Origin: Candidatus Thorarchaeota archaeon
GTDB lineage: Archaea; Asgardarchaeota; Thorarchaeia; Thorarchaeales; Thorarchaeaceae
DNA: 64,000 nt
Assembly (NCBI GenBank): GCA_003345555.1
Contig: PRDJ01000010.1
Location: forward strand, 1 to 64,000
Direction: 5' to 3'
Under the pieces are notes generated by a model. It did not search any database. It was not told where the DNA came from and saw nothing but the letters and a program-made list of their open reading frames with translations. Of this stretch, positions 46,322 to 51,535 are shown piece after piece. A program made the position numbers and the translations under genes. The first letter of the stretch is position 1, and each line of letters begins with the position of its first letter.

Positions 46322-47357
46322 TACTCGTGATATCCTTGTTCAGTTAGGAAAGAAGGTTGTCCAGAGTATTCTGAATGAGGAGTTTCCCCGCCTCGAGATA
46401 CCTGATCGAAGTACCGACAACATAGTTTTCGACCCAGAACAGGGGCAATTTGTCCTCGGTACCACCCGTGTAATGCGAGATTCCAGCAAAATAAGGCATG
46501 TCAAGAGCTTTGCGCAATTGGTCTGGGTCGCCTCGTTCGCGAAGGACCTCTTAGATGCCTCACGGACCAGTTCACTTAGAGATCTTTACTACTCAAGCGA
46601 AGCGTTCGGTGTCAAGTTCGTTGACCAAGCCGAATCCGACCGTATCGTGGCCGACCTTGAGTCTCTGAGCGGGATGGCCCGCGAAGATTTCGGGGTCTTT
46701 CCAGAGGAGCATTCATCAGTATATGGCCAAGTGACGATGCGCTACACAGTGCCCGGGTATCTCGGGCGCGAAGTGGATCTCACTGTGAGTCCAGATGGCC
46801 TGCCAATAGGACCTGCTTTGATGACAGCTGAGCCTGTGAAGTCCAACGCAGAGATTGTGCTTGCTGTTGAGTGTGGAGGTATGTTTGCCAGACTTATCGA
46901 GACGAGGGCTTGGGAGCGGTTCAAAGCAGTGCTAATTCATCTTGGCGGGCAGCCCCCGCGTTCAACACGGCGATTAATGCGTCTGCTTCATGACAGGTTG
47001 GATTTGCCGGTCTACATTTTCACTGATGGAGACCCTTGGGGTATGCATATCGCACAAGTCATCATTACCGGAAGTGCAAACGCGGCTCACATCAGGGGGC
47101 TCACGATTCCTGATGCTAGATGGATTGGTGTCACGCCGGAAGACATCGTTGAGTATTCACTGCCATGCGATTCAATGAATGACGCCGATATTAAGCGACT
47201 GGACGAGTTGGCTCTCGACTCTAGGTACACGGGACCTGAATGGCAACAGCACATTAGTGGCTTCAAAGATCTGCGAAGAAAAGCAGAGCAGCAAGCTTTC
47301 AGCAGATATGGCATGGACTACGTGGTCGACACCTACCTGGCTGACAAGCTCGCCTAG
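46305..47357 (+). CDS. top6A: DNA topoisomerase VI subunit A (Spo11-like)
   Basis: 350 residues from the ATG at 46305, which follows GAGGGGAGTGATA. DNA-cutting subunit: catalytic tyrosine in LRDLYYSSEAFG (Tyr95/Tyr96), Toprim acidic motif IFTDGDPWGMHIA. Wing-helix domain in the N-terminal half. It overlaps top6B by 17 bases and the convergent glycosyltransferase gene by 4 bases. Confidence 0.97.
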   Translation: MVESTNTRDILVQLGKKVVQSILNEEFPRLEIPDRSTDNIVFDPEQGQFVLGTTRVMRDSSKIRHVKSFAQLVWVASFAKDLLDASRTSSLRDLYYSSEAFGVKFVDQAESDRIVADLESLSGMAREDFGVFPEEHSSVYGQVTMRYTVPGYLGREVDLTVSPDGLPIGPALMTAEPVKSNAEIVLAVECGGMFARLIETRAWERFKAVLIHLGGQPPRSTRRLMRLLHDRLDLPVYIFTDGDPWGMHIAQVIITGSANAAHIRGLTIPDARWIGVTPEDIVEYSLPCDSMNDADIKRLDELALDSRYTGPEWQQHISGFKDLRRKAEQQAFSRYGMDYVVDTYLADKLA

Positions 47358-48391
47358 AGCCAACCTATTCCTAACGGGTGCGCCAACAGAAGAAGGAACA
47401 CACCAGTATAGGCAACCAGAATCTGAAGCAAAATCAGCAGCTTGACGTTCTTCTTCTCAGTCATTCTCTTTGACAGGTACGGCAGAATCCAGTACATCGT
47501 GTACGGTCCGGCAACTTCGAGAGTTCCATCCTGACGAGGAGCGGCGAACTTTGCATATCCGGCACCCGAGCGTCTGACATGTAATCTGTAGAAGATGTAG
47601 AGTAGGAAGTTTATGAAGTACGTGCTGAAAAGTATCACTGCGAGTCGGTCCATGTTTCCTAGAATCAGCGCAGTGGCTAGGGTCGCACCCAAAGGCAGGT
47701 TTCCGACGTCACCTGACAGAATCTTAGCGGGATATCTATTGAAGAAAAGGAATGCAAGTGATGCGCCAAACAAGGCCGCTGCCACCGTAGCGGCATTTGT
47801 TCCTGCATCTGTGATATTCTCTCCAGAGAAAAACGGGGTGAGTATGACATAGACCACAACTGCCGAGGAATTAACGCTTGCAAGTCCGGCTTCCAAACCA
47901 TTCATGCCAGCATACATATTGGTTGCATCGATTATGAACGTCATGAAGAGCGGCACGACTACCAGAGGATACAGCACGCCTAGATTCACTGTTCCAATCA
48001 AAGGAAGTGAGAAAGTGGGAATTCCAGTGGCCATTGCTACCATCGGGATAGAGGCAAGCATAGGCAGCACTATCTTTGTCCTGTTCCTGAAATCCAGATT
48101 GTCATCGAGGACTCCTATCATGCCCGCCATAAGAATGGACACGAGGGCAGCGAGAAGAGACGGGTCTACCACGTTTTCTTCTTGGAACGTAGTAATGCCT
48201 ACTACCACTAACAGACTGGTTACGATTGCAAAGAGGATAACGACCCCTCCTCCCTTCGGGATCTCTGGCCTACTCGGTTTATGGACATCGGTTCCAGTCC
48301 ATCCCTTATCTGTAAACATCCTTATCGCCTTGGGCGTAACTGCCAGTACGATCAGGAAGGAGACCATAAGAGCAATGAGGATCATGAGCAT
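47354..48391 (-). CDS. aglH: Dolichyl-phosphate GlcNAc-1-phosphotransferase (AglH/Alg7 type)
   Basis: 345 residues from the ATG at 48391, with GAGGGT six bases upstream. About ten transmembrane segments. Motifs: GVLDDNLDFRNRTK (DDxxD-type), NMYAGMNGLEAGLASV close to the eukaryotic NVYAGINGLE, and FFNRYPAKILSGDVGN. It moves GlcNAc-1-P from UDP-GlcNAc to dolichyl phosphate, the first step of N-glycan assembly. Divergent from the gene for a large N-glycosylation-sequon-rich membrane protein. It overlaps top6A by 4 bases. Confidence 0.92.
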   Translation of the reverse strand: MLMILIALMVSFLIVLAVTPKAIRMFTDKGWTGTDVHKPSRPEIPKGGGVVILFAIVTSLLVVVGITTFQEENVVDPSLLAALVSILMAGMIGVLDDNLDFRNRTKIVLPMLASIPMVAMATGIPTFSLPLIGTVNLGVLYPLVVVPLFMTFIIDATNMYAGMNGLEAGLASVNSSAVVVYVILTPFFSGENITDAGTNAATVAAALFGASLAFLFFNRYPAKILSGDVGNLPLGATLATALILGNMDRLAVILFSTYFINFLLYIFYRLHVRRSGAGYAKFAAPRQDGTLEVAGPYTMYWILPYLSKRMTEKKNVKLLILLQILVAYTGVFLLLLAHPLGIGWL

Positions 48392-48482
48392 GTACAAACC
48401 CTCGATGGAGGGGTGGCCACTTGTCCTGTTATTACACTTTTCGGACCATGCTTATCAAAGTACAACTTTCGTATCTACGAAA

Positions 48483-48577: not shown

Positions 48578-51535
48578 TTGAGCCTGTTGTGTAGAAGGGT
48601 TGCCGCCCTAATGCTGCTCGTACTGCTTACTACGAGCTGTATCATGATGATTGTGCCATCGAGTGAGTATTCTGTCTCACATACGCAAGATCTCAACGCA
48701 CTACGAGCAGTAACAACCGCTCAATCTTCGCTGAATGCCTCGGTTCCATATGTAGATGTTCATTACGGTCATGCGGACGGAATTATCGACCCGACCGAAT
48801 ATGCCTACAACTACACCGATCCTGTGACTGGAATCACAATCTGTCTGGAGCACAATTCAACAATCCTCTTTGTAGGTCTGTCTGCTCACACCTCAGGTTG
48901 GGTCGCTTTCAGTTGGAAGAACGGCACTTCAGACTTCGCTGCAGAAGGCATCAATGGAAGTGATGTGGTGTTTGGATATGCACCTGGAACTCCTCACTCG
49001 GATTACCAAAGAGTCACAGGTGCTCAACCCATCACGGTACACTACAAGCTAATAATGAGAAACGGTACAGTCCTTCAAGAGGGAAATGCACCTGATGATT
49101 CCTCCACGAAAGTGTTTAGCAACGAAGGGCTCCTTCCGGCTTACAAGGCTAATATCTATGGTATGCGAATAGGCGAGGTGCGCCATTTCGTAATTCCTGC
49201 ATCTCAAGGTTATACTAGTCCAACGGACACGCTGTACGGCCAAGACTTGGAGTATATTGTCCAAGTCACCCGAATCGGCAGCAATTTCACAAACCCCGCT
49301 CAAACCAGTCGAGTCTCGTACAGCTATGGTCATGGGGTAAGCACGCTGCAGCATCTGGTCTACGCAAATCAGAGCAGGATACTATCCGCCAATGCTAGTG
49401 ACAATGGCGTCACTACCCAAGTCGAGTATTACATCAAGATGAACGGGACGGGCTCCGAAGGCATTGCCCTACAGAACTCAACAAGTCTGAGCTTCCCGTT
49501 TCTTCTCATGTTTTCCAGCAGTGAGGATTTAGATGCTTTGCCCACTCAACACAGTGACTGGTCATACCCTCTTGAGGTTCAGATGATACCCAATGCAGCG
49601 CCCTTGCTCCTGCTTCAGAGTCCCAAGGTAAATGAATCGCTGACATGGGTTGCCGACATAGCTCTGAACGCGACTGATAACACGTTCGTCAGGAGGGCAT
49701 TCTACAAAGTAGACGAAGGGAACTGGACGAAGCTGAATCACAACTTCAACACATCATTATGGGAAGCCGTGGTCGCCCTTGCAAAGTACTCAAATGGGAC
49801 TCACTTGTTCCGATTTAATGCTACAGATCCATCGAATCTAACATCAGTTGTGTCGTTCAACCTTACAATTAGCCGGCCATACCTTTCGCTATTGGGGATG
49901 CGTCTGAGTGTCAGTCGGACAGTGAGCGACTTGACCTATCACACGACGCAGGTGGCCGATGTGTTTACAATCGTGAACAACGGCTCTGCGCCGATTAGCG
50001 CATTTGAGATGTACCTGCCTTCCACATACATGTCCAACTTCCTCTCCCTATCCGCAGAGGACGGTTCCAAGAGGCCACTCAGCGTTATACGACTCAATAA
50101 CACCGGGGAGCTGATGCATTGGCGAATCTATCTGTTCGAGCCAGCTGGGTTCGGGGAGTTGCACACTGTCAAGACCATCATGTATCTGCACTCTATCGAC
50201 GCTCTGAACGATTTCAGCAACAATCGCTACCAGATAGCATTCTTGAAGTACCCTGTGGTCCCGTATGTTTTATCTTCTGCAACGTTAACCCTTGCCCTTC
50301 GGAGCGGCGAAACTGGTCTTGGATCATCTCCTGAGGGACGAGCCAGCGATCTCCCTCCAATGACAATAACGCCGTTCACGTTTCTGATGACTTCGTATTC
50401 CCCGATGATACTGGCAACTAGAGTAACTGACATCACAGTGGATCCTTGGGGCTGGCTGACGTATCAGGAGACAATCACAATCAAGAACACAGGGCCCGCA
50501 ACCGAGAGCTCCATAGTGTTGACTATCCCTGCATATTCCTCGAATATCAAAATATACGACACAGTGGGTCTCCTCACATCTACGCAACTCTCTCTTCAGG
50601 GCAAACCTTGGAATAGTTCAATCTCTCTCACAGTCAACCTCAAGACCGACCGATTCGGTGACGACTTCTGGCCAGGCAATGAATACACTTTCCAGCTTTC
50701 ATACAGGCTCTTGTCCTCTGCTCATCAGAATTCAACTCCCGCTGGCGACGTTCTGAGAATCCCGGTGAGCGATCTGGGAAACCTGAGAATCACCAAGCAA
50801 ATCATCAATCTGATTTTGCCCATCTCGGTTAGCGTGCGGGAAGTATCTTCGGGCTATAGGCTCCTCTACGGTGTCTTTGGCACCATACTTAGGTATACAG
50901 TATACAATACGACCTCGTACAATTCGCCTGAAATATCGTTGAGCTATGACATCTCCGTTTGGACTGTGGCAAGGCCATTGATGTTCTCGCTAATCGTGGG
51001 CTTGGTAGCAATCGCCTACATATCTTACAGAAAGCTCTGGACTCCGGCAGCGGTCGCAGCCGAGGCTGGGTCAGAAGCTCCTACAACCGCAACCAAGCAG
51101 GCCCTCGCTCCACCCGAGCTACTACGGAAATTCGCTGCCACCTACTCGAAGAAGACGTCACTTGAGCTGGATTTGGAGAGACTCGAGGATGATTTGAAGA
51201 GAGGCAAAGTGAAGAAGAGAGAGTTCATGGTTCGGGATAGCGATATCAAGTCACAAATGGATGGAATAGACAAGGACTTGATTGCGCTCAAGAATGAAGT
51301 TGTCTCACACGGGCCGAAGTACAGGGATATGGTAGCTCAGCTAGATCTTCAAGAAGAACGAATCGCAGGTGCCAAAGCCGGTCTCAGGCAGCTTCTGCTT
51401 CGCAGAAAGAAGCAAAAAATCAGTTCTGGTGCCTTTGAAAGGACTCGTCAAGACTACCTCAAAGCTATCAAGAAAGCCGTAACAGCTACTGACCGAATAC
51501 TCCTGACAATTCAGGAGGAAGCAGGGGAGGTCTAG
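48578..51535 (+). CDS. Large exported DOMON-FKBP-ribophorin-I-like protein with cytosolic coiled coil
   Basis: 985 residues, TTG start with GGTGA 7 bases upstream. Order: signal peptide (about 1-30), DOMON-like domain (about 58-135; GWVAFSWKNG, GSDVVFGY), FKBP-type fold (about 145-235; YGMRIGEVRHFVIP), beta-sandwich region, two ribophorin-I/Ost1-like beta segments (about 437-575 and 607-795), transmembrane helix (797-817) and a helical tail 850-985. There are 24 N-X-S/T sequons, all before the transmembrane helix and none after. FKBP and transmembrane calls are confident; DOMON and ribophorin calls are inference. Next to aglH, it may belong to an oligosaccharyltransferase or glycoprotein-folding complex. 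Confidence 0.75.
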   Translation: MSLLCRRVAALMLLVLLTTSCIMMIVPSSEYSVSHTQDLNALRAVTTAQSSLNASVPYVDVHYGHADGIIDPTEYAYNYTDPVTGITICLEHNSTILFVGLSAHTSGWVAFSWKNGTSDFAAEGINGSDVVFGYAPGTPHSDYQRVTGAQPITVHYKLIMRNGTVLQEGNAPDDSSTKVFSNEGLLPAYKANIYGMRIGEVRHFVIPASQGYTSPTDTLYGQDLEYIVQVTRIGSNFTNPAQTSRVSYSYGHGVSTLQHLVYANQSRILSANASDNGVTTQVEYYIKMNGTGSEGIALQNSTSLSFPFLLMFSSSEDLDALPTQHSDWSYPLEVQMIPNAAPLLLLQSPKVNESLTWVADIALNATDNTFVRRAFYKVDEGNWTKLNHNFNTSLWEAVVALAKYSNGTHLFRFNATDPSNLTSVVSFNLTISRPYLSLLGMRLSVSRTVSDLTYHTTQVADVFTIVNNGSAPISAFEMYLPSTYMSNFLSLSAEDGSKRPLSVIRLNNTGELMHWRIYLFEPAGFGELHTVKTIMYLHSIDALNDFSNNRYQIAFLKYPVVPYVLSSATLTLALRSGETGLGSSPEGRASDLPPMTITPFTFLMTSYSPMILATRVTDITVDPWGWLTYQETITIKNTGPATESSIVLTIPAYSSNIKIYDTVGLLTSTQLSLQGKPWNSSISLTVNLKTDRFGDDFWPGNEYTFQLSYRLLSSAHQNSTPAGDVLRIPVSDLGNLRITKQIINLILPISVSVREVSSGYRLLYGVFGTILRYTVYNTTSYNSPEISLSYDISVWTVARPLMFSLIVGLVAIAYISYRKLWTPAAVAAEAGSEAPTTATKQALAPPELLRKFAATYSKKTSLELDLERLEDDLKRGKVKKREFMVRDSDIKSQMDGIDKDLIALKNEVVSHGPKYRDMVAQLDLQEERIAGAKAGLRQLLLRRKKQKISSGAFERTRQDYLKAIKKAVTATDRILLTIQEEAGEV

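Follow-up and report, generated by a model that had tools for sequence, protein, structure and literature searches.

OST1 (ribophorin I), a subunit of oligosaccharyltransferase (OST), is among the clearest eukaryote-like parts of the translocon in Asgard archaea. Its occurrence in these organisms, which a preliminary description of the locus treated here had noted, is already documented in the literature (PMC10307638, PMC8813620, PMC11417166). Ribosome binding has been demonstrated for the OST1 of the Lokiarchaeon MK-D1 (WP_147663064.1), whose crystallized cytosolic domain (8WHN) is a ribosome-binding four-helix bundle (PMC11417166). On the extracytoplasmic side, the closest described parallel is mammalian. 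When proteins with long lumenal parts are made, FKBP11 joins the OST-A translocon as a ribosome-binding adaptor, its pocket occluded by a partner (PMC12804085). What FKBPs do at the glycosylating translocon is a live question in mammals.

The window analyzed here, a stretch of 64,000 nucleotides, comes from a member of the Thorarchaeia, an Asgard group related to the ancestor of eukaryotes. It contains an OST1 gene (Table 1) whose product has the same ribophorin beta domains, single transmembrane helix and cytosolic four-helix bundle as the MK-D1 protein. Fold, topology and ribosome-docking bundle are also those of eukaryotic ribophorin I/Ost1, at about 13% identity, but the solved eukaryotic chains that were matched have no FKBP, DOMON or Ig head. 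The new part appears to be the N-terminal ~430 residues (the head), in which an FKBP-interrupted DOMON is followed by an Ig-like domain. The combination had been suspected to be undescribed, and in agreement with this a search of mostly open-access literature returned no account of an FKBP or DOMON fused to OST1 and none of an FKBP within a DOMON. The arrangement would resemble FKBP11 in that a membrane anchor, with a cytosolic part that contacts the ribosome, keeps an FKBP at the exit of a translocon containing OST (PMC12804085). FKBP11, however, is a separate, recruited protein, whereas the Thorarchaeal FKBP belongs to the OST1 chain itself, inside a DOMON. A prolyl-isomerase-like fold fused to OST1 provides a natural experiment on the reason for having proteins of this kind at the glycosylating translocon.

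Table 1. Coordinates of the Thorarchaeal OST1 gene, its predicted domains and the adjacent gene in the window.
Feature	Positions	Strand	Basis or remark
Alg7/DPAGT1-like GlcNAc-1-phosphate transferase (Glycos_transf_4), divergent	47354..48397	-	Pfam E 3e-29
OST1 (ribophorin I), extended at the N-terminus by DOMON[FKBP]-Ig	48578..51535	+	985 aa, TTG start
Signal-peptide-like hydrophobic segment, residues ~1-30	48578..48667	+	Hydropathy; N-termini of relatives likewise hydrophobic
DOMON-like domain, first half, residues ~53-145	48734..49012	+	Profile alignments, model strands
FKBP-type domain inserted in DOMON, residues ~146-238	49013..49291	+	Pfam FKBP_C, Foldseek, PDB profile
DOMON-like domain, second half, residues ~239-336	49292..49585	+	Profile alignments
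Ig-like beta domain, residues ~337-434	49586..49879	+	AlphaFold strands, PKD-type Ig-like fold matches
Ribophorin I/Ost1 extracellular (lumenal-equivalent) beta domains, residues ~435-793	49880..50956	+	Foldseek, Pfam in relatives
Single transmembrane helix, residues 794-820	50957..51037	+	AlphaFold model, hydropathy
Cytosolic four-helix ribosome-binding bundle, residues 843-985	51104..51532	+	phmmer, model, PMC11417166

Overall anatomy of the protein

The reading frame runs through 985 codons without a stop, and the same TTG start is found in nearly all full-length homologues with a located start. This family-wide retention of TTG (position 48578) hints at constrained initiation. Export and a single membrane passage had been proposed from the sequence; a signal-like hydrophobic N-terminus was indeed seen, and the one transmembrane helix is placed by both the model and hydropathy. 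The earlier count of 24 N-X-S/T sequons was exact. All of them precede residue 780, most lie in the head and Ig regions, and the cytosolic part has none. Since 2000 shuffles of the extracellular residues gave 9.3 +/- 2.6 sequons with a maximum of 19, the excess is real. Aligned family members (n = 27) have 10-24 sequons each, and no member has more than one past the membrane helix.

The domains listed in the preliminary description (DOMON-like, FKBP and ribophorin I) were all recovered. The list lacked the Ig-like domain and missed the nesting of the FKBP in the DOMON, the confinement of the architecture to one family and the ribosome-binding identity of the cytosolic part. The latter had been taken for a coiled coil; the helices of the model and a sequence match to 8whn_A show it to be a four-helix bundle.

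Identity of the C-terminal part

An AlphaFold model of residues 434-985 (33 sequences, mean pLDDT 86) contains beta domains, the one transmembrane helix and four long helices. When this model was compared with the PDB by Foldseek, the first eight matches were all human or yeast ribophorin I/Ost1 (best 8b6l_O, E 3.4e-31; eighth 1.7e-17), and the ninth and later ones were unrelated beta proteins at E 1e-7 or worse. Because the top eight are without exception ribophorin I/Ost1, the C-terminal ~550 residues are, by predicted fold, ribophorin I/OST1 despite the weak Pfam signal of the single sequence. In that search the 985-aa protein reached 18.4 bits against Ribophorin_I (cut-off 25 bits), and 6/27 Thorarchaeal relatives matched at E<=1 (best 5.5e-8). 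Plain OST1 proteins of other Asgard families reached up to 4.6e-32 (112 bits). A Ribophorin_I search of the protein's own genome gave nothing over threshold, which is a limit of sensitivity and no proof of absence. The cytosolic part was recognized by sequence as well: in a phmmer search of PDB sequences, residues 842-975 matched 8whn_A, labelled ribophorin 1 superfamily, at E 2.5e-7.

The fold match to Ost1 bears out the ribophorin likeness noted from the sequence, and the model shows both the ribophorin-like and the FKBP fold whose absence would have told against the initial reading. The idea of an oligosaccharyltransferase partner can be put more strongly. One ribophorin copy was found per Thorarchaeal genome, and the protein is the Thorarchaeal OST1 subunit itself, not a mere partner of the enzyme. 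Within Thorarchaeia the four-helix bundle is the most conserved region (mean pairwise identity 0.70; the ribophorin beta domains reach 0.44) and has a mean net charge of +9. By homology, Thorarchaeal OST1 would dock on ribosomes and belong to the OST complex.

An FKBP nested in a DOMON-like domain

The head was modeled with AlphaFold from residue 48 to 440 (mean pLDDT 89.6, pTM 0.84). The FKBP-like fold suggested earlier was found consistently by three approaches. Pfam FKBP_C matched 27/27 family members (best E 1.9e-11; the 985-aa protein at cut-off), Foldseek of the head model matched the ER proteins FKBP2/FKBP13 (TMt 0.71-0.74), and an FKBP profile search against the PDB matched FKBP2/FKBP13 too. 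A lower-ranked Foldseek match is an entry of the FKBP11-bound human translocon.

The DOMON-like segment of the preliminary description proved real, but it is split in two around the FKBP. Evidence for this came from four Asgard proteins with an uninterrupted DOMON (L144-L147; Pfam E 4.9e-29 for L145, 8.3e-11 for L147 and 1.1e-9 for L146). With the FKBP removed, the head profile aligns to each of the four in one stretch through the junction, at 35-38 bits; with the FKBP left in, it aligns in two separate stretches. Bit scores are the safer figure here because the E-values of these alignments refer to a small ORF set. Pfam DOMON also matched across the junction in the FKBP-excised sequences of two relatives (E 0.025 and 0.0026), and in single, unexcised family members it stayed below cut-off (best 9.9e-4). 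Since excision yields one continuous alignment and non-excision two, the flanking stretches are judged from these alignments to be the two halves of one DOMON-like domain, with the FKBP nested between them. Foldseek of the head against the PDB did not single out DOMON structures, an outcome to be anticipated when a domain is interrupted. The DOMON profile with the FKBP excised had no meaningful PDB match. Within the second DOMON half, Pfam also matched Big_7 (residues 266-296), probably spuriously.

Compared with PF03351, the head shares strand order and motifs, in two halves, but is interrupted by the FKBP and has lost the haem methionine. The position of this ligand is Leu or Ile in 27/27 members, so the domain was not classed as a haem-binding DOMON; the His is kept in 24/27 and replaced by Arg in 3/27. 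The uninterrupted Asgard relatives keep Met and His, at what we take to be the positions expected of haem-binding DOMONs, which would favor a module with haem or redox activity that links OST to electron transfer. Given the missing Met and the His to Arg replacements, such a module on OST1 is highly improbable, and the haem-binding reading was rejected.

The Ig-like domain that follows was assigned from fold matches to PKD-type Ig-like domains and from strands in the model. Related domains occur in many other Asgard surface proteins.

Constraint on the head

Mean pairwise identity within Thorarchaeia is 0.63 for the first DOMON half, 0.56 for the FKBP, 0.52 for the second DOMON half and 0.45 for the Ig-like domain. 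The two DOMON halves and the FKBP thus exceed the ribophorin beta domains, and judged by these identities the head is under strong constraint. The first DOMON half and the FKBP have ~20 invariant positions each, including the pocket tyrosines. These figures bear on the proposal of a head that serves as structural spacer or shields the cell surface, in which glycosylated beta domains, with the FKBP and DOMON as inert scaffolds, hold OST1 in the envelope. The concentration of sequons in the head and Ig regions, the degenerate FKBP pocket, the lost haem methionine and the recurrence of this type of Ig-like domain across many Asgard surface proteins would all suit a spacer. A spacer should drift, however, and the first DOMON half and the FKBP are more conserved than the ribophorin beta domains, which makes this proposal unlikely.

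The FKBP pocket was mapped by hand to FKBP12 (Tyr26, Phe36, Asp37, Trp59, Tyr82 and Phe99). The equivalents of Tyr26 and Tyr82 are invariant across members and those of Trp59 and Phe99 are Tyr; the Phe36 equivalent is mostly Leu or Ile, and that of Asp37 is Gln or Glu in nearly all. Because the pocket residues are just partly kept, catalysis by this domain is doubtful. An active prolyl isomerase on OST1, catalyzing glycoprotein folding at the membrane, would be a stronger form of the view that the head engages nascent glycoproteins. The invariant tyrosines and the aromatic residues at the Phe99 and Trp59 positions are consistent with activity. So is the FKBP inventory of the genome: two FKBPs were found, and since the other is SlyD-like with no signal or membrane segment by eye, the one in OST1 is the only extracytoplasmic FKBP found there. 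The substitutions at Asp37 and Phe36 argue against an active enzyme, and in mammals a partner buries the site of FKBP11 at the translocon, which speaks against catalysis there (PMC12804085). On balance, an active isomerase is a minority prospect, to be held with some doubt. With strong constraint, a degenerate pocket and no haem methionine, it is concluded that the head is probably functional, yet neither a standard catalytic FKBP nor a haem DOMON.

Distribution and gene order

An OST1 profile matched in 215/228 Asgard genomes searched, including 45/45 good ones. Among the matches listed, OST1 frames outside Thorarchaeia (family f1) are about 566-708 aa long (shorter where cut) and without the DOMON[FKBP]-Ig head, whereas uncut Thorarchaeal frames are at least 981 aa. 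Each Thorarchaeal genome has one OST1, with the head present in every intact copy; the cut copies that were checked sit at contig ends. Full-length matches to the head profile are confined to Thorarchaeia, with single FKBP, DOMON or Ig domains matched elsewhere, and the searches found the fusion in none of the other Asgard lineages covered. It is a simple diagnostic trait for Thorarchaeia. Nearly all relatives are labelled Candidatus Thorarchaeota and a few Lokiarchaeota; those placed by genome belong to f1. Viral contigs and a first scan of genome contigs with the single protein sequence as query gave no relatives. One single-contig Thorarchaeal genome (G020, 86% complete) had no match to the OST1 profile; its STT3 and the C-terminal domain of STT3 lie in short separate frames, and these gaps are perhaps due to frameshift errors.

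The divergent neighbor had been called an Alg7/AglH-type gene, which is borne out: its best PDB match is human DPAGT1 (3.5e-20), ahead of MraY (2.7e-12). Gene order was compared in 20 Thorarchaeal loci with wide flanks, of which two are without the Top6 pair and one is cut by a contig end. The common order is RIO kinase, KH protein, (Top6B, Top6A), the Alg7-like gene on the opposite strand and OST1, followed by an HD protein, a Trm112-like gene (opposite strand), GcvPA and, in nearly all, GcvPB. Linkage to the Alg7-like gene, on which the initial reading had been staked, is present in 20/20. In other families plain OST1 either adjoins the glycine-cleavage genes GcvPA/GcvPB or has Trm112-like and Alg7-like genes nearby. 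The occurrence of these neighbors in distant Asgard families (L031-L042) indicates a long-lived cluster. Because Thorarchaeal and plain OST1 share gene neighbors, the plain protein is the positional orthologue and the fusion most likely arose at the ordinary OST1 locus.

Joining of two neighboring genes by an assembly or gene-calling artefact has a next to negligible probability. Its sole support would be a stand-alone head copy in one genome, and it is already refuted by the same continuous frame, without stops and in the same gene order, in dozens of independent genomes. The stand-alone copy is a DOMON[FKBP]-Ig protein of 586 aa found in one Thorarchaeal genome alone (L155:6129-7886 +; G019:C125). 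It has a C-terminal hydrophobic segment and no ribophorin part, and is probably a duplicated head.

Proposed role of the head

It is probable that Thorarchaeal OST1 carries its extracellular DOMON[FKBP]-Ig head as a hard-wired device for engaging nascent glycoproteins. We infer every function of the head, including that of the "glycoprotein chaperone" in the preliminary description. In the ancestor of Thorarchaeia, the N-terminus of OST1 would have gained the ~430-residue head, with an FKBP inserted into a DOMON loop, plus the Ig-like domain. By homology, the four-helix bundle would dock the complex on translating ribosomes, and the single helix and beta domains would lie beside STT3. The sequon-rich outer part is probably N-glycosylated itself. 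Positioned outside, near the translocon exit, the head would most likely make contact with chains emerging from the Sec translocon, either nascent or newly glycosylated. Its FKBP fold could serve as a peptide-binding (possibly isomerising) or adaptor surface and its DOMON-like fold as a glycan- or protein-binding one. The Thorarchaeal head would then do permanently a job similar to that of the recruited FKBP11.

STT3 and other Asgard FKBPs

Partner genes were found in the genome as well: one STT3 and, ~4 kb away on the same contig, an Ost3/6-like gene. This STT3, the only one found, has 952 aa, and its last ~175 residues have no Pfam match (G000:C26:2336-2863, at the end of the STT3 ORF; L160:73-2928 -, L195). 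The ~175-aa domain occurs in 41 Thorarchaeal genomes, at the end of frames of about 910-985 aa where these are complete; outside them, just two weak matches in family f15 were found. Compared with the OST1 DOMON set, its profile gave a probability of 96% (150 columns, 18% identity), which fell to 88% when only Thorarchaeal rows were used. On the strength of the 96% match, STT3 of Thorarchaeia may end in a lineage-specific DOMON-like domain, so that both OST1 and STT3 may carry such domains. Tentatively, Thorarchaeia could have rebuilt their OST with fixed extracellular reader domains, the OST1 DOMON[FKBP] and the STT3 domain jointly keeping nascent chains or new glycans in place at the active site. 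If true, this would be a built-in equivalent of the FKBP11- and malectin-type factors, which the eukaryotic OST recruits separately; we give the possibility less than even weight. Among Asgard families the length of STT3 frames ranges widely, from about 590 to 1646 aa, so that OST may have been elaborated in a lineage-specific way throughout Asgard archaea. The fusion on OST1 also shows that Asgard OSTs, far from being static forerunners of the eukaryotic complex, have extracellular modules peculiar to single lineages.

Extracellular FKBPs anchored in the membrane also occur in other Asgard families (L148, L149, L150, L151, L152, L153, L154 and L157). These stand-alone proteins outscore cytosolic FKBPs against the Thorarchaeal FKBP profile, and most share the segment YT.P.H.LYG..L with the OST1 FKBP, but they are separate small proteins of about 150-250 aa. 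L148, L152 and L157 end in a cytosolic zinc-finger-like tail, and L154 has the FKBP11 layout (signal peptide, FKBP, transmembrane segment and basic tail). FKBP12-like proteins of ~110 aa were also found in some Thorarchaeal genomes (L165, L166, L169, L171 and others) and in family f22 (L167 and L168). Their scores against Pfam FKBP_C, as high as 138 bits, far exceed those of other Asgard FKBPs, and they were possibly acquired horizontally.
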